From the NCBI RefSeq assembly GCF_030581005.1, contig NZ_JAUQSX010000001.1, positions 744,001 to 808,000 of the forward strand: a DNA stretch of 64,000 nucleotides, read 5' to 3'. The notes under the pieces are model-generated. The model searched no databases. It had not been told where the DNA came from and was given only the letters and a program-made list of their open reading frames with translations. Origin of the DNA: Hymenobacter mellowenesis. Its GTDB lineage: Bacteria; Bacteroidota; Bacteroidia; Cytophagales; Hymenobacteraceae. The translations under genes and the position numbers were made by a program. Below, in pieces: positions 10,908-24,277 of the stretch (positions are counted from its first letter, which is position 1; the number at the start of each line of letters is the position of its first letter).

Positions 10908-13178
10908 ATGAAATACTTGGCGCCCGCGCTACTAATCGGTTTGGCGCTGCTGAATCCGGCCGAGAGCCGGGGCCAGCAGCTGCCGCCTGATTTGCTCATG
11001 GATGAGACGTTTCAGCAGGCCCGCCACTACTGGGTGGGCCGCATCCCCAACCTGGTGGGGGAGATAACCGCGACTGGCTATTCCTTCCAATCCCTCGGCA
11101 CTACTTTCAGCAACATTCCCATTGAGCCCTACGGACCGGCCCTGAACCAGCAGCAGGACTTTGTGATAGAGGGTGAGTTGCGCGGCCAGGGAAGTTTTGG
11201 CGTGTATTGGGGTGGGCAGCGCGTGGGCACGGCCGAGCAACTCACTACCACGCAGTTGAACCTCGCGCTGGCGGCTCCTACCGCGACGGTATTTCGCTTG
11301 CAAGCCGGCGCCTGGACCATGCTGGCCACCATGCCCCTCCCCACTGCCGTAGCCCCAGCCGATTGGCACACCATCCGCATTGCCCGCGCGGGAGCCGAGG
11401 TAACGTATTGGGTAGATGGCCACCAAGTGCTGCGGCAGCCCTGGCCCAACCCGCCCGGCCCGGACTTCGGCCTGACGGTGGAATCCGGGGGCGCCGTGAC
11501 CCTGCGCCGCCTGCGCCTCTGGCACCACCACCCCATTCGGCTGGCCCCGGGCCTGCCCGCTACTCTGAAGCGCGAACGCCTGGAGGCCCCCAGCCTGAAC
11601 ACGGAGCGCTATGAAGTGACTCCGCTGGTTTCGGCCGACGGGCGGTTCCTGTATTTCTCGCGGGTGATGGGCAATTACAACGCCCTCGACGATGCCATAG
11701 CCTTCAACTCCGACGTCTACGTGGCCGAACGCAACTCCGATGGCAGCTGGGGACACGTACAGGCGCTGGGGCCACCCATCAATACAGCCGCTTCGGACTA
11801 CCCCCAGCACGTGTCGCCCGATGGCCAAACGCTGCTCATCAACAACCGCTACGGACCGGACGGCAATCTGCTGGGCCCGGGCTTGTCGCGCACCCGCCAC
11901 CTCCCCGATGGTACCTGGACCGTCCCCGAGGCCCTGCCCGAAGGCACCGGCTACCGGCCGGACTTTGCGCGGCGCAACTCGACGTATTGCCTCGATGCCA
12001 GCGGCACCATCCTGCTACGCTCGGCGTCTCTCACCACGGCACTCGGCAACACCGACCTTTACCTCTGCCGGCGTCAGCCGGACGGTTCCTGGTCGGCCCC
12101 GGCCCTGCTGCCTGCCCCCATCAATACGCCCGCCCGAGAGGTATCCCCTTTTCTGGCTCCCGATGGCAAAACCCTCTATTTCGCCTCGGATGGCCACCCC
12201 GGCTACGGAGGGCTCGACATTTTTATGAGCACCCGCCTCGATGATACCTGGACCCGGTGGAGCGAGCCGCTGAACCTGGGACCAAGCATCAACACGCCGC
12301 TGGGCGACAGCTATTATTCCACCTCCGCCGCCGGCGACGTGGCCTATTTGGTGAGCGATACCGGACCGGGGCACCTGGGCGATATCTTTCGGGTGGTGCT
12401 GCCAGCGGCGCTCAAGCCGGCCCCCGCCGTGCTGGTGCGCGGCCGGGTGCTCGACGCCCGCACGGGCCAAGCCATTACCACGGCCGAGGTGCGCTACGAG
12501 CAGCTGCCCACCGGCACCGAGGCCGGCGTGGTGCTGCCCGCCGTGGCCGGCTCGTTCGAAGCCACCCTGCCGGCCGGGCAGCAGTACGGCCTGCGCGCCA
12601 CGGCCCCCGGCTACCTGTCGGTGAATGAAAGCCTGAACCTGACTACGGCCACGAAATACGGCCAGGTAACCCAGGACCTGTACCTCATGCCCCTGACGGC
12701 GCCCACCGAAGCACTGGCCGCCAAAGCGACGGCCCTGCAAGTTGCCCGCCCCGCCGCTGCCGCCGTGCCCCGGCAGTTGAGTGGTGTGGCCGTGGCGCCG
12801 CCCGTGGCCATCGCGGCCGCAGCCGAAGAACACATTGCCCTGAACAACCTGTTTTTCGTGCGCGGCAAGGCCGAATTGCTGCCAGCTTCCTTCCCCGAGC
12901 TCAACCGCCTGGCCCAGACGCTGACCGAGCACCCGGGCCTGGAAATCCGCCTCGACGGCCATACCGACAACACCGGCGACGCCAAGGACCCCAAGCCCAA
13001 CCAGGTGCTCAGCGAGCAGCGCACCCAGGCGGTGAAGGCCTATCTAGTGCGGCAAAAAATTGCGCCCGCTCGCCTCAGCACCCGGGGCTACGGGGGCTCG
13101 CGGCCCGTGGCGGCCAACGACACTGAGGCCAACAAAGCCCGCAATCGCCGCGTCGAATTTGTGATTGTGAAGCGTTAA
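10908..13178 (+). CDS. OmpA-family protein with PD40 propeller-like region
   Basis: Protein of 756 residues. The ATG at 10908 gives a signal peptide ([20 protein letters not shown]). An N-terminal region resembling a laminin/LamG-like domain (about 25-210) is followed by WD40-like PD40 motifs ([43 protein letters not shown]), a carboxypeptidase-regulatory-like beta-sandwich ([19 protein letters not shown]), and a C-terminal OmpA peptidoglycan-binding domain ([14 protein letters not shown] ... [15 protein letters not shown]). Such proteins tether the outer membrane or surface complexes to peptidoglycan, and similar ones (PorE-like) belong to type IX secretion, which is possible but unproven here. 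Its stop codon overlaps that of convergent aroC in a shared TTAA (13175-13178). Confidence 0.85.
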
Positions 13179-14254
13179 AGCCGGTTGGAGCGGGCCCGCA
13201 GCAGCAAATCGGCCAGCACCAGCTGCGTCATGGCTTCTACGATGGGCACGGCGCGGGGCAGCACGCAGGCATCGTGGCGGCCGCGGCCCACCAGCGTCAC
13301 GGCCTCGCCCTGGTCGTTGATGGTTTGCTGGGGCTGGAGCAGCGTAGCCACTGGCTTGAAGGCGACGCGGAAATAAATGTCCTGGCCGTTGCTGATGCCG
13401 CCCTGGCTGCCGCCGCTGTGGTTGGTGCGGGTGCGCACGGCGCCGGTTTCGTCGGTGTAAAATTCGTCGTTGTGCACCGAGCCGGGCAGCTTCGTGCCTT
13501 CAAACCCGGAGCCGAATTCAAACCCTTTCACCGCATTGATGCTGAGCAAGGCGTGTCCCAGCACGGCCGGCAGCTTGTCGAACACGGGCTCGCCCAGCCC
13601 GGCGGGCACATGGCGCGCTACGCCCGTAATCACGCCGCCCACCGTATCGCGCGCCGCCTGGGCCGCCCGGATGCGGGCCTCCATCAGCGCGGCCGTTTCG
13701 GGGTGCGGGCAGCGCACGGGGTTGCTGTCGATGAGGCTTAAGTCCAGCTCCTGATACTCCAGAGGCACTTCTACCTCACCCACGGCCGACACGTAGGCGG
13801 CAATTTCGACCCCGAAATGCGCCAGCAGCTGCATGGCCACGGCGCCGGCCGCCACGCGGGCAGCCGTTTCGCGGGCCGAGCTGCGGCCGCCGCCGCGGTA
13901 GTCGCGCCGGCCGTATTTCACGTCGTAGGTGTAGTCGGCGTGGCTGGCGCGGTAGGCGTGGGCAATGTGCGAGTAGTCGTCGGAGCGCTGGTCAGCGTTC
14001 GGGATGAACAGGCTGATGGGCGTGCCGGTGGTAAAGCCCTCAAACAGGCCCGACTGAATCTGGACGGTATCAGCCTCCTTGCGCGGCGTGGTGAGGTCAG
14101 ACTGGCCGGGTCGGCGCCGGTCCAGCGCCGCCTGAATCTGCGCGGCCTCCACGGCCACACCGGCCGGGCAGCCGTCGATAGTCACGCCGATGCCCGCCCC
14201 GTGCGACTCGCCAAAGGTGGTGATGCGAAAGAGGGAGCCGAAGGTGTTGGACAT
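13175..14254 (-). CDS. aroC: Chorismate synthase
   Basis: Last enzyme of the shikimate pathway: converts 5-enolpyruvylshikimate-3-phosphate to chorismate with reduced FMN, in the cytoplasm. The 359-residue length is normal. Family signatures are clear: [20 protein letters not shown] at the N-terminus, [37 protein letters not shown], and later [20 protein letters not shown]. The ATG at 14254 begins the conserved sequence directly. The 3' end shares a TTAA stop overlap with the convergent OmpA gene. Confidence 0.97.
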
Positions 14255-14415: not shown

Positions 14416-15936
14416 CTACGCCCGCTGCCCCGCCCGCCACCAGCCGAAGGCCGCCACCCCGGCCAGCCCGATGAGCAGCCAGTCGGCGTAGCGGCGCACG
14501 TCGCGGTACACGTCCATCGACTGCAGGGTGTCGTCGGCACTGGCCAGCGCGGGGCCGTAGAAGGGGTCGTCCTCGGGCCTGGGCAAGGGGGCGGGGGCCG
14601 CCACCACGCCGCGCACATCGGGGCGCACTTCGGGCCGGAGCGTGTCGTAGCGCGCCTTAGTTGGGTTGAAAACCACCAGGCTGATGAGGCTGTCGAGCGG
14701 CAGCACGCCCGGGCGGCGCGCCACCAGCCGGTAGCGAAACATTTTGCGCCCGCCGCCCGGCACGGGTTCTTCTTTCACCTCGGAGCCAAACACTTCCAGC
14801 CCCGGGCGGGTGGGCCACGCGGGTGCCAGCACGGCCGCCAGGTTGCCGCGGCCCTCTACCCCGAATGAGTAAGTGAACGACTCGCCCACCCGAAATTGGG
14901 TGCGGCTGATGGCCTCCCGCACCTCAAACGAACCCACTGCCACCGCGCCCTGTCGAGCCGCCTGCGGCAAGGCCCGCACCTGCACCGCCACGCCCGGCGC
15001 GTAGTAGGTTTTGTAACCCGCCAGGCGGTTGTCCTGGCCCGGCTCGGGCTTTTTCAGCACTTTGAATTTCACCATCGTCAGGGCCAGGGGCGGGAAGCGC
15101 AGAGGCTGGGCCGTGAGCGGATAATAAATATTTTCGGCCAGCCGGAAGCGCAGGTATTTCTGGCCCAGGTGGCGCACGGTATCGGGCGTAACGCTGGCTT
15201 CTGGGCCGGGCTCCTGCCATGCCGTAGGCTGGTGCAGCTCGTGCAGCAGCGGCGGCAGCTGGTCGTTGAAATCGTGAAAGGCCAGCAGGGCCTGGTCTTC
15301 GGGCTTGAGGTAGAAATACAGGCCCACGCGCACGCCTTCGCCCACAAACACGCGCGGCTGCTCGGCCACCACCGCCAGAAAGGCGTGGTCGGGCACGTCC
15401 TGGTAGAGCACGGCCTTGGGCTTGCCAAACATCTTGTCGAGGTCGGCCACGGCTTGCAGGGGCGCGGTGGGGTTGGCCGGCTTGGTGAGGGTGCCGGGGT
15501 TGGGCACCGGGGCCGGGCCCACGTGCACGGTGTTGCCGCCGCCGCGCAGCACCACTCCGTTCACCGTGATTTGGAAGGGTTTGATGACGACATCGCCTTC
15601 GCCGTAGGGCACGTAGCGCTGCGTGATGGTCACATCCACGAAGCGCCGGCCCTGCACCGTGCGCGTGGTATTGGTGCGGGTTTTGCCGGTTTTTTTGAAG
15701 CCTTCCAGCTCGGGGAATTCGGAATATTTTTCCAGGGTGCCGCCTCGCAGCCGGAACGCCAGCGTGAAAACGCCCGTGACGGGCAGCGCAGCCGGGCCCG
15801 GAACCAGGGCCACGTCGGCCGGCGCGGTGCTGGCGGGCTTGGACGGGCTAGTGGCGGGGGCAGCGGGCTGCGCGGCGGCCGCTGCCGCCCCCACCAGCCA
15901 CCAGAGCCACAGCATTTGCCTAAAAAGTATTCGCAT
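14416..15936 (-). CDS. batD: BatD-like oxygen-tolerance family membrane protein
   Basis: Protein of 506 residues with an N-terminal signal (MRILFRQMLWLWWLVGAAAA), a large periplasmic beta-sandwich region and a C-terminal membrane helix (DWLLIGLAGVAAFGWW) with a short basic tail. BatD features include QRYVPYGEGDVVIKPFQITV, FVGEGVRVGLYFYLK and the second repeat VREAISRTQFRVGESFTYSF. In other Bacteroidota batD usually sits with moxR and batA/B/C; here it is alone, and the only moxR in view is near 52 kb. Role in the Bat pathway is poorly defined. An Ala/Pro-rich linker follows the signal. A TACTTTTA -7-like box lies on the minus strand at 15960-15967. Confidence 0.8.
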   Translation of the reverse strand: MRILFRQMLWLWWLVGAAAAAAQPAAPATSPSKPASTAPADVALVPGPAALPVTGVFTLAFRLRGGTLEKYSEFPELEGFKKTGKTRTNTTRTVQGRRFVDVTITQRYVPYGEGDVVIKPFQITVNGVVLRGGGNTVHVGPAPVPNPGTLTKPANPTAPLQAVADLDKMFGKPKAVLYQDVPDHAFLAVVAEQPRVFVGEGVRVGLYFYLKPEDQALLAFHDFNDQLPPLLHELHQPTAWQEPGPEASVTPDTVRHLGQKYLRFRLAENIYYPLTAQPLRFPPLALTMVKFKVLKKPEPGQDNRLAGYKTYYAPGVAVQVRALPQAARQGAVAVGSFEVREAISRTQFRVGESFTYSFGVEGRGNLAAVLAPAWPTRPGLEVFGSEVKEEPVPGGGRKMFRYRLVARRPGVLPLDSLISLVVFNPTKARYDTLRPEVRPDVRGVVAAPAPLPRPEDDPFYGPALASADDTLQSMDVYRDVRRYADWLLIGLAGVAAFGWWRAGQRA

Positions 15937-16211: not shown

Positions 16212-16985
16212 ATGTCCGACAATCTCCAGCCCCGTGGCTCCGACGATGCTTCGTTCGCCCAGCCGCTGTACACGCCCATTAAGCGTCGCTCCTTCTTCAT
16301 GTATGCCGGCGCCACGGCAGGTGCTACGGCCCTGGTGATGGCCGGCTGCTCGAAAGACAACGACCCTGTTACTTCTGATAACCTCATCAATGTGGGCTCG
16401 GGTGATACCGGCGTGCTGAACTACGCCTATGCGCTGGAGCAACTCGAAGCCGGTTTCTACACCCGCCTGCGCACCGGCACCTACTACACCGGCCTGGGCT
16501 CTGCCAGCGCCGAGAAGCAGATTCTGGACGACCTCTACTACCACGAAGTTATTCACCGCGAATTCTTCAAGGCGGCCATCACGAGCGGCCGCATCAGCGA
16601 CAGCCTGACGCCGGACTTCTCCAAAATTGACTTCAACAGCCGCACCAGCGTGCTGGGCACTGCCATGGCGTTCGAAGACCTCGGCGTAGCGGCTTACAAC
16701 GGCGCGGGCCAGTACATCAGCTCGCCGCTGTACCTCACGCTGGCCGGCAAAATCGTATCGGTGGAAGCACGCCACGCCGCCATCATCCGCGACTTGGTGA
16801 TGGAAGGCTCGTTCGTAGGCAACGACGTCGTGACCATCAGCAGCGCCAACAACAGCGCCAGCGCCGGCGGGGCCGGTTCCAGCGGCTCCAGCCAGGAGCG
16901 CTCGAAGACGCCGTCCGAAGTAGTGGCCGTGGCCAACACTTTCCTGGCCGAAGGCTCCAAGCTCAACGTTTCGGGCCTGAAATAA
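16212..16985 (+). CDS. Ferritin-like protein, pair 1 member A (Tat/lipoprotein signal)
   Basis: Protein of 257 residues of the ferritin-like superfamily (PF13668-type). The N-terminus has a twin-arginine motif (IKRRSFF, R25-R26), a hydrophobic run and a lipobox with C46 (LVMAGC). The four-helix bundle keeps a full set of candidate di-metal ligands: E76/E79 in ALEQLEAGFY, E112 and H115 in HEVIHREF, E155 in AFEDLGVAAY, and E185 and H188 in VEARHA. It is followed 35 bp later by member B. Iron or manganese binding and a desiccation or oxidative-stress role are inferred from relatives; the substrate is unknown. Confidence 0.85.
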   Translation: MSDNLQPRGSDDASFAQPLYTPIKRRSFFMYAGATAGATALVMAGCSKDNDPVTSDNLINVGSGDTGVLNYAYALEQLEAGFYTRLRTGTYYTGLGSASAEKQILDDLYYHEVIHREFFKAAITSGRISDSLTPDFSKIDFNSRTSVLGTAMAFEDLGVAAYNGAGQYISSPLYLTLAGKIVSVEARHAAIIRDLVMEGSFVGNDVVTISSANNSASAGGAGSSGSSQERSKTPSEVVAVANTFLAEGSKLNVSGLK

Positions 16986-17020
16986 TATCCCTTTCTCTTC
17001 AACTCTGAATTCTCTTCGCC

Positions 17021-17995
17021 ATGAATTTTTTCCAAATCATCTCGGAAATCGAGAAAGTGGACCCGGAAGTGTACGACCGCCTCGACTCGCGTCGCAGCAT
17101 TTTCAAGCACATGACCGGTCTCGGCCAGAAGCTCACGGCGGCTGCCGTGCCGCTGGCGCTGGGTGCCATTTTCAATAAAGCGTATGCCCAGACGCCAGTG
17201 GGCGCTACGGTGAACGATGTGCTCAACTTCGCTCTGAGCCTGGAGTACCTGGAATCGTATTTCTACAACGCCGGCCAGGCTTCTACTACCTTGCAGAGTG
17301 GCCTCAGCGCGACCAATAAGGCGGCGCTGGAACTCATCAGAATCGATGAGGCCAACCACGTAACCTTCCTGCGCGGGGTGCTGGGCACGGCGGCTATTGC
17401 GGCCCCCACCACTGCTACGTTCGACTTCACCGGCGGCAAGGGTTCCGCTGGCGGCCCATTTGCCGACGTATTCACCAACCCGGCCACCTACCTCGCTGTG
17501 GCCCAGTCGCTGGAAGATACCGGCGTGCGTGCCTACAAAGGCGGCGCAGCGCTGTTGATGAGCAACAAAACTGTGCTCACGGCGGCCCTCAACATTCACT
17601 CGGTGGAAGCCCGCCACGCTTCTCGTCTGCGCGCCATGCGCCGCGCCGGCCCCAACAATAATGCTGCCTCGCAAGGCGTGCCGGTGGCACCTTACAACGC
17701 TGCCCCCAAAAGCTGGATTTCCGGTACCGACAACGGTGGTGCTTCGCCTACCCAGACGGCTCCTATCTACGGCGCGGGCAACAACACCAACGCCCCTACG
17801 AACGTGACGTTTGATGCCGAAAGCAACACCACCCAAGGCGGTACGAACCTGACTGGTTTGCCCAACACCACCGGCCTGTCGGCGGCCGCCTTCGCTGTGG
17901 CTATCACGGAGGCTTTTGATGAGGCCCTCGACGTGACGACGGTAAAAACCATCGCCCGCACCTTTGTAGTGAACGGCAGCACCTTCCTGGCGTAG
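17021..17995 (+). CDS. Ferritin-like protein, pair 1 member B (Tat signal)
   Basis: Protein of 324 residues beginning MNFFQII, a start shared with the paralogue at 18964. The signal lies unusually deep: SRRSIFK near residues 23-29 looks like a Tat motif, then LTAAAVPLALGAIF and a cleavage site after KAYA. Di-metal ligands are complete: E75/E78 (LEYLESYFY), E110 and H113 (DEANH), E165 (LEDTGVRAY), E196 and H199 (VEARHA). A Gly/Asn/Thr-rich C-terminal segment (about 205-290) is longer than in the other members. Probably co-transcribed with member A, ending at the terminator near 18030. Confidence 0.85.
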   Translation: MNFFQIISEIEKVDPEVYDRLDSRRSIFKHMTGLGQKLTAAAVPLALGAIFNKAYAQTPVGATVNDVLNFALSLEYLESYFYNAGQASTTLQSGLSATNKAALELIRIDEANHVTFLRGVLGTAAIAAPTTATFDFTGGKGSAGGPFADVFTNPATYLAVAQSLEDTGVRAYKGGAALLMSNKTVLTAALNIHSVEARHASRLRAMRRAGPNNNAASQGVPVAPYNAAPKSWISGTDNGGASPTQTAPIYGAGNNTNAPTNVTFDAESNTTQGGTNLTGLPNTTGLSAAAFAVAITEAFDEALDVTTVKTIARTFVVNGSTFLA

Positions 17996-18026
17996 CCTTT
18001 CGGCTCTGCCACGTAATTTGCCAATG

Positions 18027-18059
18027 AAAAGGGCTGACCTGCGGGTCGGCCCTTTTTTT
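18027..18059 (+). terminator. Terminator after ferritin pair 1
   Basis: GGGCTGACC and GGTCGGCCC form a stem with a TGCG-type loop (one G-T pair), followed by seven T. Confidence 0.9.
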
Positions 18060-18238
18060 GTGCCCGCCAGGCAGCCAGCGCGGCGCCTGTTGGGTAGCTG
18101 TTGCGGTCCCGACGAGCGACTTCCGTTGCCGGGCCGTTACTTTTACTTGTTCAACCGTACAACCTCCGGGCCTTGCGTGGGCTCTTGCTTGTTGTAGCAA
18201 GGCTTGGGCGGGTGCCCAGCCTCATATTTTGTTTTTTC

Positions 18239-18931
18239 ATGTCTGATACTCTTCAGCCGCTGCACACGCCCATCAAGCGGCGCTCGTTTTTCCAATATGC
18301 CGGCGCCACGGCGGGAGCTACGGCCCTCGCGCTGGCCGGCTGCTCCAAAGACAGCGACCCGGCGGCCATTGTCCCGGTCAGCAGCATTAGCCTTGGCACC
18401 GGCGATGTGGGCATGCTCAACTACGCGTATGCGCTGGAGCAGCTCGAAGCCGCCTTTTATGCGCAGGTGGTGAAAACGCCGGCCGCCGATTTTCTGTCCG
18501 GCGAGCTGGCCTACTTCACCCAGATTGCCACCCACGAAGCCATTCACCGCGACTTTCTGAAAACCGCCATTTCCGGCGCGGGCGGCTCGCTGCTGCCCAC
18601 GCTCACACCCATTTTTACCAGCATCAACTTCAGCAGCCGGGCCAGTGTGCTGAACGCCGCCAAAACGTTTGAAGACCTGGGCGTGGCCGCCTACAACGGC
18701 GCGGGCGTGCTGCTGAAATCGCAGACCTACCTCACTATTGCCGGCCAGATTGTGTCGGTGGAGGCCCGCCACGCCGCCCTCATCCGCGACCTGCTGTCAC
18801 CGGGCTCATTTGCCGACGACAACCAGGTGGACGCCACCGGCCTCGACAAGCAGATGACACCCACCGACGTCATCGCCGCCGCCCAGCCCTTCATCACCGA
18901 GAAGCTGGACGCCAGCAGCGTGGGCAAGTAG
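18239..18931 (+). CDS. Ferritin-like protein, pair 2 member A (Tat/lipoprotein signal)
   Basis: Protein of 230 residues and the closest paralogue of the gene at 16212 (both start MSD.LQP and share TPIKRRSFF.YAGATAGATAL). The ATG at 18239 is chosen because it matches that paralogue; upstream in-frame codons are intergenic. Lipobox cysteine is C35 (ALAGC). Metal ligands are complete: E67/E70, E100 and H103 (HEAIHRDF), E145, E175 and H178. It lies 32 bp before member B. A TACTTTTA box at 18138-18145 may be its promoter. Confidence 0.85.
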   Translation: MSDTLQPLHTPIKRRSFFQYAGATAGATALALAGCSKDSDPAAIVPVSSISLGTGDVGMLNYAYALEQLEAAFYAQVVKTPAADFLSGELAYFTQIATHEAIHRDFLKTAISGAGGSLLPTLTPIFTSINFSSRASVLNAAKTFEDLGVAAYNGAGVLLKSQTYLTIAGQIVSVEARHAALIRDLLSPGSFADDNQVDATGLDKQMTPTDVIAAAQPFITEKLDASSVGK

Positions 18932-18963
18932 CCCGTTTTCCTCCCTTCGTCATTCTTCGCATC

Positions 18964-19848
18964 ATGAATTTTTTTCAGATTATTGACCAGCTGGCGGCCG
19001 TAGACCCCGACGTGCTGGACCGTTTCGATTCGCGGCGCGCGGTGTTCAGCTCACTGGGCTCGGTGGCCAAACGCTCGGCGCTGGCCGCTACGCCGCTGTT
19101 TCTGGGCGCGCTGTTTCAGAAAGCCTACGCCGGCACCACCTCCACGCCCGTGGATGTGCTGAACTACGCCCTGACCCTGGAGCTGCTCGAAGCCGACTTC
19201 TACCGGCTGTTTCTGGCCGCCGGCACCCTGCCCAATGCCACGGCCACGGCCGCCATCACCCAAATCAAAAAGCACGAAGACGCTCATGTGGCCCTGCTCA
19301 CGCGCACCATTCAGGCGGCGGGCGGCACGCCCGTCACGGGCACAGCCACCACGGGCATTCGCTTCAAGCCGTCGGCCTTTCCGAGCACCTACGCCGGGCA
19401 ACTGCGCGTAGCCCAGCTGCTGGAAGACACCGGCGTGCGGGCCTACAAGGGCCGCGCGGCCGAGCTCGTGGGCACCACCTTGCTCACCACGGCACTCCAG
19501 ATTCACTCCGTAGAAGCCCGCCACGCGGCGCACATTCGCCTCATGCGCGGCCAGCTGCCCTGGGTGAACAGTGCCGACGACCTGGCCACGGACCCGACCT
19601 ATACCAGCGGCGTGACCGGGACCACCAGCACGCAGGTAACCACCGCCGGGGGCGCGTTTGGCATTCCGGCCTATAGCACTGCCAGCCCTGCCGAATCCAG
19701 CACCGTGATAGGCACCGTGCCGCTCACTACGGGCATTACCACGGCTCCGGCCGTTTATAGCGCAGCCGATGCGGCAGCGGCTTTCGACCAGGTACTGCAA
19801 CCCGCCGAGGTGGTGGACGCTTCGCGGGCGGGCGGCTTGTTGGCATAA
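18964..19848 (+). CDS. Ferritin-like protein, pair 2 member B (Tat signal)
   Basis: Protein of 294 residues, paralogue of the gene at 17021 (MNFFQII start, VDPDVLDRFDSRRAVF, then a hydrophobic run to the KAYAG cleavage region). Metal ligands are complete: E73/E76 (LELLEADFY), E105 and H108 (HEDAH), E154 (LEDTGVRAYKG), E184 and H187 (VEARHA). The C-terminal third is Thr/Ala/Ser-rich. A weak hairpin follows at about 19891-19920. Confidence 0.85.
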   Translation: MNFFQIIDQLAAVDPDVLDRFDSRRAVFSSLGSVAKRSALAATPLFLGALFQKAYAGTTSTPVDVLNYALTLELLEADFYRLFLAAGTLPNATATAAITQIKKHEDAHVALLTRTIQAAGGTPVTGTATTGIRFKPSAFPSTYAGQLRVAQLLEDTGVRAYKGRAAELVGTTLLTTALQIHSVEARHAAHIRLMRGQLPWVNSADDLATDPTYTSGVTGTTSTQVTTAGGAFGIPAYSTASPAESSTVIGTVPLTTGITTAPAVYSAADAAAAFDQVLQPAEVVDASRAGGLLA

Positions 19849-19890
19849 ACCAGCTAACAGGACACTTTTTCGGCCCAATTCAGCTTATGG

Positions 19891-19920
19891 AGCCGGTTCT
19901 GCTTGCGCGGGGCCGGCTTT
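19891..19920 (+). terminator. Possible terminator after ferritin pair 2
   Basis: AGCCGG and CCGGCT can pair around a 16-base loop, followed by TTTGTTG. Weaker than the other terminators here. Confidence 0.4.
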
Positions 19921-19931
19921 GTTGTGGGGGC

Positions 19932-19965
19932 TTTGCAACCATTGGACGGGCAGGGAGTACCTTTG
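19932..19965 (+). promoter_or_regulatory. Promoter of ferritin pair 3
   Basis: TTTG at 19932-19935 and TACCTTTG at 19958-19965, 22 bp apart, fit the Bacteroidota -33/-7 pattern. The ATG of the next gene is 55 bp downstream, so pair 3 can be transcribed on its own. Confidence 0.65.
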
Positions 19966-20019
19966 TAATGGCTGGGGCCCGGCTTATCGGGTTGGCGGGC
20001 TGGCTTGAATATTTTACGA

Positions 20020-20775
20020 ATGTCTGACCACTCTCATTTGCCCGCCTGGCGGGAGCAGTCGCTGGGGCGACGCTTGTTTTTGCAGGTTTCGGCCGCATCG
20101 GCGGCTTCGGCTGCCCTAGTGGTAGCGGGCTGCGACACCTCCTCCACCCCCACGCCGACCGTCGACACCAACCAGATTTTGCTGCCCCAGGGCAACCAGG
20201 GCATGCTGTACTACGCGTACCTGCTGTCGCTGGCCAAATCCACCACCTATCAGAAGGTGGTCGACTCGCCTCCCGGTGACCTGCCGGCCGCCGAACGGGC
20301 CATTTTTGCCGATATGCGCGACCACGAAGTGGTGCACCGCGAAACGCTGAAATATCTCATTGACCCCACCCGCGCCAAGGCCCTTTTCCCTTCGGATTTT
20401 GCCTTCATCCTCACGCGGTTCACGCTCACGTCGCGGGCCGGGGTGCTGGCGGCCGCCCTGCAGCTTGAAGACTTGGCGGCGGCGGCCTATCCGGTGATTG
20501 TGCCGTTCTTCACCACCTCAAACAGCTACGCCCGCACGCTGCTGCTCAAGATGTCGACGGTGCAGGCCCGGCACGCGGCTACCGTTCGCGATTTACTCAC
20601 GCCCGGCTCGTTTGCCGACAGCACGGTGGTGAACAGCACCGGTCAGCTCATCACCAAAACGCCTACCGAGGTGCTCGCAGCGCTGGCTCCGTTCCTGGCG
20701 CCGTACGTGCTGTCCATCACCTGCCCCGACACCAACCCCAGCACCGACCCGGGCTTGTGCACCGCCAACGGCTAA
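20020..20775 (+). CDS. Divergent ferritin-like protein, pair 3 member A, with ligand losses
   Basis: Protein of 251 residues with a Tat-like GRRLF signal and lipobox cysteine C38 (VVAGC). It aligns with the other A members over their whole length, but helix 1 reads AYLLSLAKSTTY in place of AYALEQLEAGFY, so both acidic residues are gone (S70, K73), and helix 4 reads VQARHA, with glutamine (Q182) in place of glutamate. E103 and H106 (HEVVHR), E150 and H185 remain. Normal di-metal binding therefore seems unlikely. The C-terminus ends in a Cys-containing tail (SITCPDTNPSTDPGLCTANG). A TTG at 20005 is in frame, but it lies upstream of the family-like MSD start. Confidence 0.8.
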   Translation: MSDHSHLPAWREQSLGRRLFLQVSAASAASAALVVAGCDTSSTPTPTVDTNQILLPQGNQGMLYYAYLLSLAKSTTYQKVVDSPPGDLPAAERAIFADMRDHEVVHRETLKYLIDPTRAKALFPSDFAFILTRFTLTSRAGVLAAALQLEDLAAAAYPVIVPFFTTSNSYARTLLLKMSTVQARHAATVRDLLTPGSFADSTVVNSTGQLITKTPTEVLAALAPFLAPYVLSITCPDTNPSTDPGLCTANG

Positions 20776-20824
20776 TTGCCGCGGCCTTACCCGTTATTTC
20801 TACAGCCGCCCCGCCGGTTTTCGC

Positions 20825-21679
20825 ATGAAGCTGATATCCTTGCTTGACCATTTGGCCGCCACGCCGGCCTCTACTTCGGCCGCGCCGCGCCGTGCCGTGC
20901 TGGCGCAGCTGGGCCGGGCTGCCGCTGCCGCGCTGCCGCTCGCACTAAGCGCCCTGCCGGCCACCGCCGCCACCCAGGACTCGACCCAGGACGCCGTGCT
21001 GCAACTCCTGCAGCTCGAGCGCCTGCAAGCCGCCCTCTACACCCAGGCCCTGGCCGCCACCGGCCTGATTCCGGCCGCCCAAACCGCCGATTTCCAGCGC
21101 CTGCTGGCTCACCAAACCCAGCACATCACGTTCCTGACGCAGACTTTGCAGGGCGCGGGCAGCGTGGTGCCGGCCACGCCCACTTTCGACTTCAGCGGCC
21201 GGCGCAACGTGACGGCCAACCCGGAGCTTTTCCCGGCCGTTTTCACCAACTACGACAATTTTCTGGCCCTGGCGCAGCAGATTGAGGACTTTGGCGTCCG
21301 GCTCTATAAAAACCACGTCTTCAACGTCCTCTCCGATTACCGCCTGAACGGGGCCGTGCTGCGCATGCAAAGCGTGGAAGCCCAGCACTCGGCCCACGTG
21401 CGCGGGCTGCGCCGCAGCCGCGGCGCCACGGTGAGCAACTGGCCCAGCGAAAAAGACACGGCCATTGCGCGGCCCGCCGCGGCCCAGGCCCTCACCACGG
21501 CCGCCACCGGCGGCGAGGCCAACGTGGCCCAACCCGTATCGACCACTGCTACCTTGCCTACGGCCAGCATCTTCCTGGTGCGCGACAATACGGCCATTCA
21601 GGACCCGGCTTTGGCTGAGGCTTTTGATGAGCCCATCACCAGCGCGGTGGCTCAGGCAGCACTCAATTTATTCTTCTAA
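20825..21679 (+). CDS. Divergent ferritin-like protein, pair 3 member B, with ligand changes
   Basis: Protein of 284 residues, in the same order as the B members at 17021 and 18964, 49 bp after member A. The N-terminus (APRRAVLAQLGRAAAAALPLALSALPATA) is a weaker Tat-like signal. Candidate ligands compared with the paralogues: E65 kept, the second helix-1 glutamate replaced by Q68, helix 2 HQTQH with Q97 in place of glutamate (H100 kept), E154 kept (IEDFGVRLYKN), E185 and H188 kept (VEAQHS). At least two acidic positions are thus amidated. A terminator follows at 21721. Confidence 0.8.
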   Translation: MKLISLLDHLAATPASTSAAPRRAVLAQLGRAAAAALPLALSALPATAATQDSTQDAVLQLLQLERLQAALYTQALAATGLIPAAQTADFQRLLAHQTQHITFLTQTLQGAGSVVPATPTFDFSGRRNVTANPELFPAVFTNYDNFLALAQQIEDFGVRLYKNHVFNVLSDYRLNGAVLRMQSVEAQHSAHVRGLRRSRGATVSNWPSEKDTAIARPAAAQALTTAATGGEANVAQPVSTTATLPTASIFLVRDNTAIQDPALAEAFDEPITSAVAQAALNLFF

Positions 21680-21720
21680 ACAAGGTCATATAGGAGAATA
21701 CAAAATTTTGGCATTCCCCC

Positions 21721-21750
21721 CGAAAAGAGCGGCCCTGGCCGCTCTTTTCG
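21721..21750 (+). terminator. Terminator after ferritin array
   Basis: CGAAAAGAGCGGCC and GGCCGCTCTTTTCG form a near-perfect stem with a two-base loop. Confidence 0.85.
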
Positions 21751-21791
21751 CGTATTAAGCCTCCTGCCAAAGCCTAGAACCATTCTGCTGA

Positions 21792-21904: not shown

Positions 21905-22120
21905 ATGCTAGAATATGTGAAAATTATTCTGACAAAAGTCAGCTTCAACAAAGCGCTGTTCGAGAAAGAACTGCGCAAAGCTCTTAACATGGTGCTCCCG
22001 GCCGAGTTGGCGGATTTCCGCAGCTGGTGCTACCAGCAGTTTTCCCGGGTATACCGGCACGTGCTGAAGCGTGTGTTCGGCCGTTTCCGGGATGATTTTC
22101 CCGTGGCCGGCGTCGGCTAG
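21905..22120 (+). CDS. Small conserved-looking hypothetical protein
   Basis: 71 residues starting [20 protein letters not shown], basic and helical, with one Trp-Cys (RSWCYQQF) and a basic tail ([11 protein letters not shown]). It resembles a small cytoplasmic protein I associate with Hymenobacter genomes, but I know no function. The ATG at 21905 follows the promoter-like site at 21792-21823; an in-frame upstream extension lacks support. The stop codon overlaps that of convergent queG in a CTAG (22117-22120). Confidence 0.65.
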
Positions 22121-23076
22121 TCGTTGGCGGGTGGCAGGGCCTCCTGGCCTTCCGTCACAAACCGGATGTTGCGTTTCAGCCCTTCGTAGCCCGTGCGCTT
22201 CACGGCCGACTGCCGGAACAGCTCCGTAAATAATTCGTGGGTGATTTCGCGCCAGTCGCCAGGCGTCAGGTCTTTGAGGCCAGGCGCGGGGTTGAACTGC
22301 GGCTCATTGTGCGGCTTAGAGAAGCGGTTCCAAGGGCATACGTCCTGGCAGATGTCGCACCCAAATACCCAGTTGCCGAACTGCCCGGCCACTTCGGTCG
22401 GAATCTGGTCCTTGAGCTCAATGGTGAAGTAGCTGATGCACTTGCTGCCGTCCACCACGTAGGGCTCGGTGATGGCTTGGGTGGGGCAGGCATCCACGCA
22501 CTTGGTGCAGGTGCCGCAGTAGTCTCGGATGGGACCGTCGGCGGGCAGTTCCACGTCCACAATCAGCTCGGCGATGAAGTAGAAAGAGCCCGTGCCCGGC
22601 GTTATCAGATTGGAATTTTTACCCACCCAGCCGAGGCCCGATTTCTTCGCCCAGGCCTTGTCCAGCACCGGTGCGGAGTCCACAAAACAACGCCCGCCTA
22701 TGGCACCAATTTCGGCTTCCATGTCGGCCAGCAGCGTTTTCAGCTTGTCTTTGATGACGAAGTGGTAGTCGCGACCGTAAGCGTATTTACTGATTTTGAG
22801 GGTGTCGTCGGGCTGCTGGGTTTCGGGCGCGGGGTAGTAGTTGAGCAGCAGCGAAATCACCGATTTAGCGCCGTCCACCAGCAGACGCGGGTCGAGGCGC
22901 TTGTCAAAGTGGTTTTCCATGTAGCCCATCTTGCCGTTCATGCGGCGCGTGAGCCAGGTTTCGAGGCGCGGAGCTTCTTCTTCCAAGAATTCAGCCTTTG
23001 AAATGCCGCAGGCCATGAAGCCCAGCTCCGCCGCACGGCGCTTGATAAAGGGAGCCCACTGTGAGGGAGGAAGCAT
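22117..23076 (-). CDS. queG: Epoxyqueuosine reductase QueG
   Basis: Cytoplasmic cobalamin and 4Fe-4S enzyme that reduces epoxyqueuosine to queuosine in the tRNA wobble base. Length from the ATG at 23076 is 319 residues; upstream in-frame codons are discarded because they run through the intergenic hairpins. Two ferredoxin-type cysteine sets are present ([16 protein letters not shown] and [14 protein letters not shown]), with the family motifs [15 protein letters not shown] and [19 protein letters not shown]. No other queuosine genes are in the window. Confidence 0.95.
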
Positions 23077-23113
23077 GGGCAATAAAGCGAAACTGAGCTG
23101 CAAAGAAACAGGA

Positions 23114-23220
23114 AACGCGCCGCTGGGGGCGGCGCGTTCCGTGGTGTAGCGTGGACTCTGCGAGTCCGCGCAGGTGTAGCATCGTGTGAACAAAGCGAGG
23201 ACTCGCAGAGTCCACGCTAC
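23114..23220. repeat. Two intergenic hairpins between ruvB and queG
   Basis: A GC-rich stem (AACGCGCCGC with GGCGGCGCGTT, 23114-23138) is followed by an inverted repeat with perfect 22 bp arms, 23146-23167 and 23199-23220 (core GTGGACTCTGCGAGTCC). The right arm ends one base before the ruvB stop codon. Confidence 0.9.
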
Positions 23221-23221
23221 A

Positions 23222-24277
23222 TTACGACGTTATTTCGTCGAACAAACTCACGCCGTTGTTACCACGCAAGTGGTTCGGCAGCAGGCGACCCAGGTGCTGG
23301 TACGCGGCCTCGGTGGCCTCGCGGCCGCGCGAGGTGCGCTTGATGTAGCCTTCTTGAATCAGGAAAGGCTCGTACACTTCCTCGATGGTTTCGCCCTCCT
23401 CGCCGCAAGCCGTGGCGATGGTGCTGATACCCACCGGGCCGCCCTTGAACTTGTCGATGATGGTGGTCAGAATGCGCTTATCCATGTCGTCGAGGCCGCG
23501 GGCGTCCACGTCCAAGGCATTCAAAGCAAACTGCGCGATATCGACCGTGATGGTGCCGTCGCCTTTAATTTGAGCGAAGTCGCGGGTGCGGCGCAGCAGG
23601 TTGTTGGCAATACGAGGCGTACCGCGCGAGCGGCGGGCAATTTCAAAAGCCGCATCCTCATGGATGGGCGTGCCCAAAATTTCAGCCGAGCGCTGCACGA
23701 TGGTGGTCAGCAGCTTGGAATCATAATACTCCAAACGAGCCGAGATGCCGAAGCGGGCCCGCAGCGGCGCCGTGAGCATGCCCGAGCGCGTGGTAGCGCC
23801 CACGAGGGTGAAGGGCGAAAGCGAAATCTGCACCGAGCGGGCGTTGGGGCCCGAATCGAGCATGATGTCGATGCGGTAGTCCTCCATCGCCGAGTACAGG
23901 TACTCTTCCACCACGGGGTTGAGGCGGTGGATTTCATCGATGAACAGCACGTCGTGCGGCTCTAGGTTGGTGAGCAGGCCAGCCAGGTCGGAGGGCTTAT
24001 CCAGCACCGGGCCGCTGGTCATCTTGATGCCCGAGCCCAACTCGTTGGCGATGATGTGCGAGAGGGTGGTTTTGCCCAGGCCGGGAGGGCCGTGCAGCAG
24101 CACGTGGTCGAGGGCGTCGCCGCGCTGCTTGGCGGCGGCCACGAACACTTTCAGGTTTTCCAGAATCTTGTCCTGGCCCGTGAAATCGTCGAAACTGAGC
24201 GGGCGGAGGGCTTTGTCGATGTCCTTGTCGGTGGCATCGAATCCGTCGGTTCCGCCGGTGAGATAGGCTTCGCGCAT
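23222..24277 (-). CDS. ruvB: Holliday junction branch-migration helicase RuvB
   Basis: Hexameric AAA+ motor of the RuvABC complex. 351 residues, normal length. Walker A is [11 protein letters not shown], Walker B is [10 protein letters not shown], sensor 1 lies in [10 protein letters not shown], and arginine-finger and winged-helix regions follow ([18 protein letters not shown], then [19 protein letters not shown]). The ATG at 24277 gives the usual short N-terminus before [14 protein letters not shown]. ruvA and ruvC are not in the window. Confidence 0.97.

Follow-up and report, generated by a model that had tools for sequence, protein, structure and literature searches.

Ferritin_2 gene pairs and their characterized relatives

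Until 2024 the Ferritin_2 family (PF13668) was without a known molecular function, and it is associated with stress tolerance in organisms from plants and tardigrades to fungi and Deinococcus, as summarized in PMC11616004. The same source describes three members, RvFeMP-1, RvFeMP-2 and DRB0118, as phosphatases of sugar phosphates and of both normal and damaged nucleotides, and reports that RvFeMP-1 dimerizes via helix 4 and that RvFeMP-1 and DRB0118 are homodimers. PCC13-62 from Craterostigma plantagineum and the fungal Rds1 belong to the same Pfam family and share the stress association, with metal site 2 residues that differ, as described in PMC11616004. The present analysis concerns a stretch of 64,000 nucleotides of Hymenobacter mellowenesis DNA (assembly GCF_030581005.1, contig NZ_JAUQSX010000001.1, positions 744,001 to 808,000; hereafter the window), in which six genes of this family occupy the plus strand at positions 16212-21679 in the order A-B-A-B-A-B, the arrangement that a first-pass annotation, made from the sequence alone, had described. 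That annotation had also pointed to a link of the group to desiccation, which is in print for the homologue DRB0118, whose loss lowers desiccation survival (PMC11616004; table entry in PMC1978522).

All six products match PF13668 at 56.6 to 130.7 bits (E 4e-15 to 5e-38), and since every one exceeds the curated cut-off of 24.7 bits at these scores, membership of the family is far beyond chance and the ferritin-like identity first assigned to the genes is upheld. The A genes encode predicted Ferritin_2 lipoproteins of the twin-arginine translocation (Tat) type, namely A1 (16212-16985; 257 aa), A2 (18239-18931; 230 aa) and A3 (20020-20775; 251 aa), counted from the ATG codons at 16212, 18239 and 20020; the open reading frames (ORFs) of A2 and A3 are open from 18101 and 20005, where the ORF finder begins both at TTG. 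The B genes encode Ferritin_2 proteins with predicted Tat-type export, namely B1 (17021-17995; 324 aa), B2 (18964-19848; 294 aa) and B3 (20825-21679; 284 aa). The shared motifs that had been noted recur in the first two pairs (TPIKRRSFF, GATAGATAL and VEARHA in A1 and A2; DSRRxxF and LEDTGVRAYKG in B1 and B2) and are missing from the divergent third, in which A3 bears GRRLFLQ and VQARHA, and B3 begins MKLISLL and bears IEDFGVRLYKN and VEAQHS. An NCBIfam scan returned a Tat-signal model for A2 and, for B3, one chance-level match far under its cut-off. The host genome (6.4 Mb, 26 contigs) contains ten PF13668 matches, which are the three array pairs and one further A-B pair each on contigs 3 and 20.

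Each pair is proposed to be a transcription unit for two exported Ferritin_2 proteins, likely a heterodimer, with metal-dependent phosphate-ester hydrolysis, an explanation that, taken whole, is considered about as likely as not. Both proteins would fold and load metal in the cytoplasm and then travel by Tat; A would gain a lipid anchor in the outer membrane and might face outward, and B would be cleaved after export and kept at the membrane by A, the two joining through helix 4 in the manner of their homodimeric relatives. Pairs 1 and 2 would hydrolyse phosphate esters, be they sugar phosphates, nucleotides or damaged nucleotides, with a role in desiccation tolerance or phosphate salvage. The third subtype would later have lost metal ligands, often first in B by a change of Glu to Gln, and pair 3 would have been kept as a non-canonical or non-catalytic pair, capable of binding without the standard di-metal chemistry or using a different metal set.

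The relationship to the tardigrade phosphatase RvFeMP-1 of Ramazzottius varieornatus (RvY_06210; PDB 8kce, 8w9k, 8wai and 8x1k) emerges from sequence and from predicted fold. Among solved structures, that of RvFeMP-1 matches both profiles best and is the only clear match (E 4.9e-4 for A and 4.8e-6 for B). AlphaFold2 models of A1 and B1, with mean predicted local distance difference test scores of 78.5 and 78.1 and values of 81-98 by ten-residue block in the four-helix domain, place it first again, at Z 20.8 over 166 residues and 2.4 Å for A1 and Z 18.6 over 163 residues and 2.0 Å for B1, followed by a mini-bacterioferritin at Z 14.3 and 13.6, respectively. Bacterioferritins and Dps proteins rank behind RvFeMP-1, and an iron-storage ferritin cage is not favoured because the tardigrade protein clearly outranks the bacterioferritins in this comparison; "ferritin-like" in the sense of iron storage is not borne out, the nearest characterized relatives being metabolite phosphatases. 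RvFeMP-1 shares with A and B the four-helix bundle, a C-terminal helix that also aligns, and the placement of a helix-1 Glu, a helix-2 ExxH, a helix-3 Glu and an acidic helix-4 ligand. It differs in its Ig-like (immunoglobulin-like) domain, its secretory signal, its homodimeric state and its reportedly essential Asp135, whereas A and B have Tat-like signals, are encoded as a gene pair, carry no Ig-like domain by Pfam and have Gly at the place of Asp135.

DRB0118 from Deinococcus radiodurans, assigned to clade 2 in PMC11616004, resembles the pair in other respects. It displays the pattern E / ExxH / E..G / ExxH with a second helix-1 Glu, and the Glu-x-x-Gly of helix 3 and the two Glu of helix 1 are common to A, B and DRB0118 in 45-row alignments. 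It has a lipobox-like N-terminus, as does A, and no Ig-like domain, as in A and B. Unlike them, DRB0118 is encoded without an adjacent partner, its gene being flanked by a sodium:proton antiporter gene on one side and an insertion sequence on the other, and it falls in a separate clade with members from Thermus, Sphingomonas and Acidobacteria (99/97). Phosphate ester hydrolysis is placed first among the candidate chemistries, at about an even prospect, because RvFeMP-1 ranks first by sequence and by fold and because the features of DRB0118 are shared.

Several points weigh against this assignment. The Asp135 of helix 3, essential in RvFeMP-1 according to the published account, is Gly in A and B; because DRB0118, described there as active, also has Gly at this place, Asp135 marks RvFeMP-1 and not the DRB0118 clade. 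Published activities of the three phosphatases are one to two orders of magnitude under those of known phosphatases and their native metal is described as unsettled (PMC11616004). Foldseek alone is weak for B1, with RvFeMP-1 again on top at a best E of 6.7e-3. Sigma or anti-sigma families occur in only 4-5 of the 100 neighbour proteins scanned, out of 140 extracted; among those 100, no dominant family names a pathway, the counts being Radical_SAM 6, CofH_C 5, Sigma70 regions 5, RskA_C 4 and DUF6600 4.

The six residues of E/ExxH/E/ExxH (helix-1 Glu, helix-2 ExxH, helix-3 Glu and helix-4 ExxH) form the classic ferritin-like di-metal set, and all six are kept by A in 157 and by B in 142 of 171 distinct pairs, a collection from which 19 duplicate pairs and 23 unpaired or short ORFs (most of them cut by the locus end, judged by position) were excluded and in which the host genome's own five pairs are included. 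Such conservation would suit exported di-iron or di-manganese oxidases or peroxidases, of the ferroxidase, manganese-catalase-like or rubrerythrin-like type, that rid the cell surface of Fe(II) and H2O2. This redox chemistry is consistent with the rank of bacterioferritins and Dps proteins after RvFeMP-1, with a sub-threshold Rubrerythrin match of A2 in the Pfam scan, and with Tat export, which fits preloaded metal. The first place of RvFeMP-1 by both fold and sequence argues the other way, as does the phosphate-ester hydrolysis of the PF13668 members assayed in PMC11616004, and redox chemistry is regarded as a doubtful second choice beside hydrolysis.

The A-B pair as a unit

The pairing was followed in the 80 relative loci most similar to A, which are not an even sample of the phylum and include Hymenobacter, Adhaeribacter, Rufibacter, Pedobacter, Mucilaginibacter, Chitinophaga, Runella and Dyadobacter. 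These loci contain 131 A and 120 B ORFs, fragments counted, and 119 adjacent A-B pairs. Every full-length B lies directly 3' of an A on the same strand (190/190; 117/117 in the 80-locus set and 73/73 in a second, overlapping set). The pairs had been assembled on the premise that A precedes B, and their order was for that reason examined independently across every classified ORF, where a full-length A is followed by B in 118 of 128 and 74 of 75 cases; the remaining A genes are near a locus end, except in one strain, Hymenobacter sp. H14-R3 (L058/L077). Here an A without B stands just ahead of queG, a point against an obligate pair, and a 111-residue B piece lies upstream of a full pair (L058 3280-6768). 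In one other relative, two separate reading frames make up the B gene of a pair (L034 472-1322).

Two wider samples agree. In a family survey, 56 of 60 genomes have matches, in even number in 53 and odd in three, and a neighbour lies within 1300 nt for 128 of 150 PF13668 matches among the matches listed. In an even phylum sample of 198 genomes, host included, 26 have a match; 19 of these hold 56 strong matches, each with a neighbour within 1000 nt (56/56), and the other seven, from other Bacteroidota families, have one weak, short, unpaired match apiece (E 5e-10 to 1e-4). The adjacency of A and B in related genomes, without which the first-pass annotation considered its reading refuted, was therefore found throughout, bar the single A of strain H14-R3. 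A large part of a phylum appears to use PF13668 in the form of a two-gene unit, one product anchored and the other soluble, so that dependence on a partner can be tested directly in the laboratory. Searches of the open-access literature gave nothing on Hymenobacter ferritin-like proteins and, judged from the papers listed, no description of the A-B pair.

Each A-B pair is probably one transcription unit. Genes within a pair lie a median of 26 nt apart (n=171), compared with 164 nt from one pair to the next (n=53). On the plus strand, hairpin-folding stretches follow pair 1 (18020-18062; -25.5 kcal/mol, z -5.79), pair 2 (19886-19925; -24.6 kcal/mol, z -4.95) and pair 3 (21716-21760; -22.7 kcal/mol, z -5.47), all three folding better than 200 of 200 shuffles. 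Only the first is terminator-like with a clear T-run after the stem, the T-run being weak in the second and within the stem in the third. A terminator scan returned 12 sites against 7.6 expected, the three post-pair hairpins not among them, and a promoter scan was uninformative, with 3 sites against 1.3 expected.

The pair is also the unit that duplicates, as had been proposed, which is borne out by the agreement of the A and B trees, by clades common to A and B and by the loci at a fixed address described below. The trees correlate at r 0.83 over the 171 pairs, and in multi-pair loci (97 pairs, 44 loci) true partners give r 0.87, against 0.14 (standard deviation 0.07) for partners shuffled within the locus, with none of 1000 shuffles reaching 0.87. 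A-B pairs on plasmids of Mesorhizobium and Methylobacterium radiotolerans (L141 and L142) nest inside the Bacteroidota clades of both A and B, a placement that suggests transfer of the whole pair to Rhizobiales. In one Mesorhizobium strain, three plasmids carry similar genes.

An A-B complex is likely. Outward-facing residues of helix 4 are near invariant (G179, S183, A186 and R187 in A; L190, S194, A197 and R198 in B), but conservation is on average at least as high on the outward face of helix 1 in A and on that of helix 3 in B. Among the top 40 covarying A-B positions, three join helix 4 to helix 4 (1.3 expected) and six join helix 2 to helix 1 (1.2 expected), at an effective number of sequences of 92, so that helix 4 is not singled out. 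This result speaks against the proposed contact, as does DRB0118, which as a solo gene shows that the PF13668 family needs no partner. The two proteins may instead be two homodimers made from one operon in one compartment. Such an arrangement, suggested by the published homodimers RvFeMP-1 and DRB0118 (PMC11616004), the covariation, the solo members and the A without B, is rated unlikely, if somewhat less so than redox chemistry. It sits poorly with the invariable position of full-length B genes after an A, with the co-duplication of the pairs and with the joint nesting of the Rhizobiales plasmid pairs, and also with the recurrence of a lipobox-bearing and a cleaved-looking member in separate gene pairs.

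These separate pairs of adjacent PF13668-like genes, found in Thermus thermophilus, Granulicella, Sphingomonas, Acidisarcina and Miltoncostaea, resemble A-B and fall outside the A and B clades. By eye, four of the five, those of Thermus, Granulicella, Sphingomonas and Miltoncostaea, combine a lipobox member with a cleaved-looking one, a recurrence that does not extend to Mesorhizobium or Methylobacterium. Because their partners are each other's sisters, the Sphingomonas and Granulicella pairs arose separately. A natural A-B fusion was not seen, no match having an open frame of more than 431 residues among the matches listed in the family survey or in the 198-genome sample.

Export signals of the two members

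The Tat motif and lipobox that had been annotated for A are confirmed, and Tat-like motifs are present in both members. By eye, A1 and A2 have KRRSFF and a hydrophobic stretch followed by (M/L)AGC, and A3 retains the twin arginine (RR) and lipobox as GRRLFL ... VAGC. Across the 171 pairs, RR and a lipobox are found in 155 A proteins by a strict pattern and in 168 by a wider one that accepts near forms of RR and a Cys 12-40 residues on; of the three that remain, inspection by eye shows RR and Cys in two, and the third has a long ORF upstream. The B proteins all have RR upstream of the domain, and none has a lipobox by the pattern used. B1 and B2 bear DSRR(S/A)(I/V)F followed by a hydrophobic stretch that ends in AYA ahead of Q or G, with a cleavage-like site AYA-Q by eye in B1, and their n-region is unusually long (MNFFQII...DP.V.DR; in B1 conserved as MNFFQII...DSRRSIF). 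From these motifs, the B proteins look like Tat substrates as well, with a probable cleavage site.

The final location of A is a matter of conjecture. According to PMC5080379, surface export of Bacteroidota lipoproteins is signalled by C-x-K-[DE]2 or by a polar-acidic run after the lipobox Cys. At least two acidic residues occupy positions +2 to +7 after this Cys in 136 of 168 A proteins, compared with one of nine control ORFs, a small set in which that one is possibly itself an A protein, and the run recalls the published signal. A1 (CSKDND) and A2 (CSKDSD) are near matches to it and A3 (CDTSST) is not. The strict form occurs in just 22 of 168 A proteins, which counts against a surface location and leaves it a guess. 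Nor is the lipid anchor universal, since by eye no lipobox is present in A of the pairs from Mesorhizobium and Methylobacterium, a further point against the proposal.

Age of the array and its divergent third pair

The array and its relatives share a fixed address, aroC-batD-[AB]n-queG-ruvB, defined in the window by four minus-strand genes, namely aroC (chorismate synthase; 13175-14254) and the adjoining BatD-domain gene (14416-15936) on one side, and queG (epoxyqueuosine reductase; 22117-23193) and the outer marker ruvB (23222-24277) on the other. A single pair lies between the same four genes in Adhaeribacter (2 loci), Rufibacter (4) and Sabulibacter (1), and Hymenobacter has from one pair (L072) to five (L041) at this address. 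The pairs divide into subtypes by distance clustering, with subtype II corresponding to cluster 1, subtype I to cluster 2, and subtype III to the union of clusters 6-8, grouped by hand; pairs 1, 2 and 3 of the window belong to subtypes II, I and III, respectively. The three subtypes of the window are found one by one in other Hymenobacter species too. The subtype III members sampled in a 71-row tree group as a single clade, for A (100/100) as well as for B (100/99). In a separate tree built without the ligand columns, the 30 rows of the subtype stay together against five outgroup rows, and all 30 pairs are last in their arrays as fetched. All three subtypes also lie between batD and queG in L060, from another genus of the same family. 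Taken together, the subtype clades and L060 place the origin of each subtype, as a pair, before the species split and before the split from that genus, and the array grew in place by whole-pair duplication before the sampled Hymenobacter species diverged.

The idea that a single pair was triplicated locally and recently in this strain, which the tandem layout and the motifs common to pairs 1 and 2 might bring to mind, is rejected as hardly credible in light of the tree, the three subtypes spread across Hymenobacter species and the identities, A1 and A2 being 54% identical and A2 and its H. properus counterpart 79%.

The subtypes differ in the state of their metal sites. Pairs 1 and 2 of the window have all six ligands intact in both members. 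In pair 3, A3 has lost two (helix-1 Glu to Ser and helix-4 Glu to Gln) and B3 one (helix-2 Glu to Gln), so that neither member has a complete di-metal site. Metal site 1 (helix-1 Glu with helix-2 Glu and His) is accordingly present in A1, B1, A2 and B2, and incomplete in A3, without its helix-1 Glu, and in B3, with Gln for the helix-2 Glu. Of the di-metal complex first annotated for all three pairs, the site is therefore complete in the first two and incomplete in the third.

Beyond the window, 14 of the 30 subtype III pairs have A-site losses, with none in the other 141, and B-site losses number 19 of 30 against 10 of 141. Outside subtype III, nine of the ten losses affect the helix-3 Glu in subtype II, replaced by Val (6) or Ser (3), and in the tenth a helix-2 His has become Gln. 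In these subtype II B proteins (L054, L059, L060, L064, L074 and L120; L041, L048 and L050), the site of the partner A is intact. The helix-2 Glu of B is changed to Gln in 18 of 30 subtype III pairs, with no other replacement anywhere and none outside the subtype. Parsimony gives three changes between Glu and Gln, at least two of them forced by well-supported branches and with gains and reversals indistinguishable, and seven changes for the A-site losses. Among subtype III pairs, seven are changed in B only, two in A only, 12 in both and nine in neither; given the excess of B-only over A-only changes, B was often changed before A, with too few contrasts for a test of independence. Within a single array, the metal site ranges from intact through half-changed to lost, a natural series for testing what it is for.

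Pair 3 may merely be decaying and heading for loss. The A-site losses are many and varied, broken or missing members occur, such as fragments in third place in L075 and the last-place A without B of strain H14-R3, and the ratio of nonsynonymous to synonymous substitution (dN/dS) is slightly higher than in the type I pairs compared. Estimated by simple counting, at dS values as high as 1.3, the ratios against H. properus are 0.29 for A3 and 0.23 for B3, compared with 0.21 and 0.15 for A and B of the type I pair, and range over 0.15-0.47 in all subtype III comparisons and 0.09-0.34 in the others. Being well under 1, they indicate that pair 3 looks maintained, under somewhat weaker constraint. 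The full reading frames and retained RR and lipobox in the window, the uniformity of the B helix-2 change (Glu to Gln in 18 of 18) and the persistence of subtype III at array ends in two genera likewise make decay rather unlikely.

There is also a stronger and more tentative version of the proposal, considered rather unlikely as a whole, in which a homodimeric family gave rise to an obligate, lipid-anchored A-B metal phosphatase of the outer membrane, and the array, expanded at one address by Hymenobacter, carries a built-in pseudo-enzyme as its last pair, acting as regulator, scaffold or binder of damaged nucleotides and not as a hydrolase. As part of that version, the helix-2 Glu of the last-pair B would have become Gln repeatedly and convergently, with the A site lost afterwards.

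Minor observations from the relatives concern the surroundings of other family members. A Sphingomonas Ferritin_2-like gene pair lies directly 3' of the ergothioneine genes egtB and egtD (L152 431-4909), tatA, tatB and tatC are close to a solo Ferritin_2-like gene on a Methylobacterium plasmid (L150 1-4262), and an A-B pair on a Hymenobacter plasmid adjoins umuD and a Y-family polymerase gene (L145 2983-6671). Near the contig 3 pair of the host is a gene for a large DUF4394 protein that also carries a secretion-system C-terminal sorting domain (L009 11271-14000), and in Haladaptatus a DUF4394 annotation overlies a ferritin-like match.

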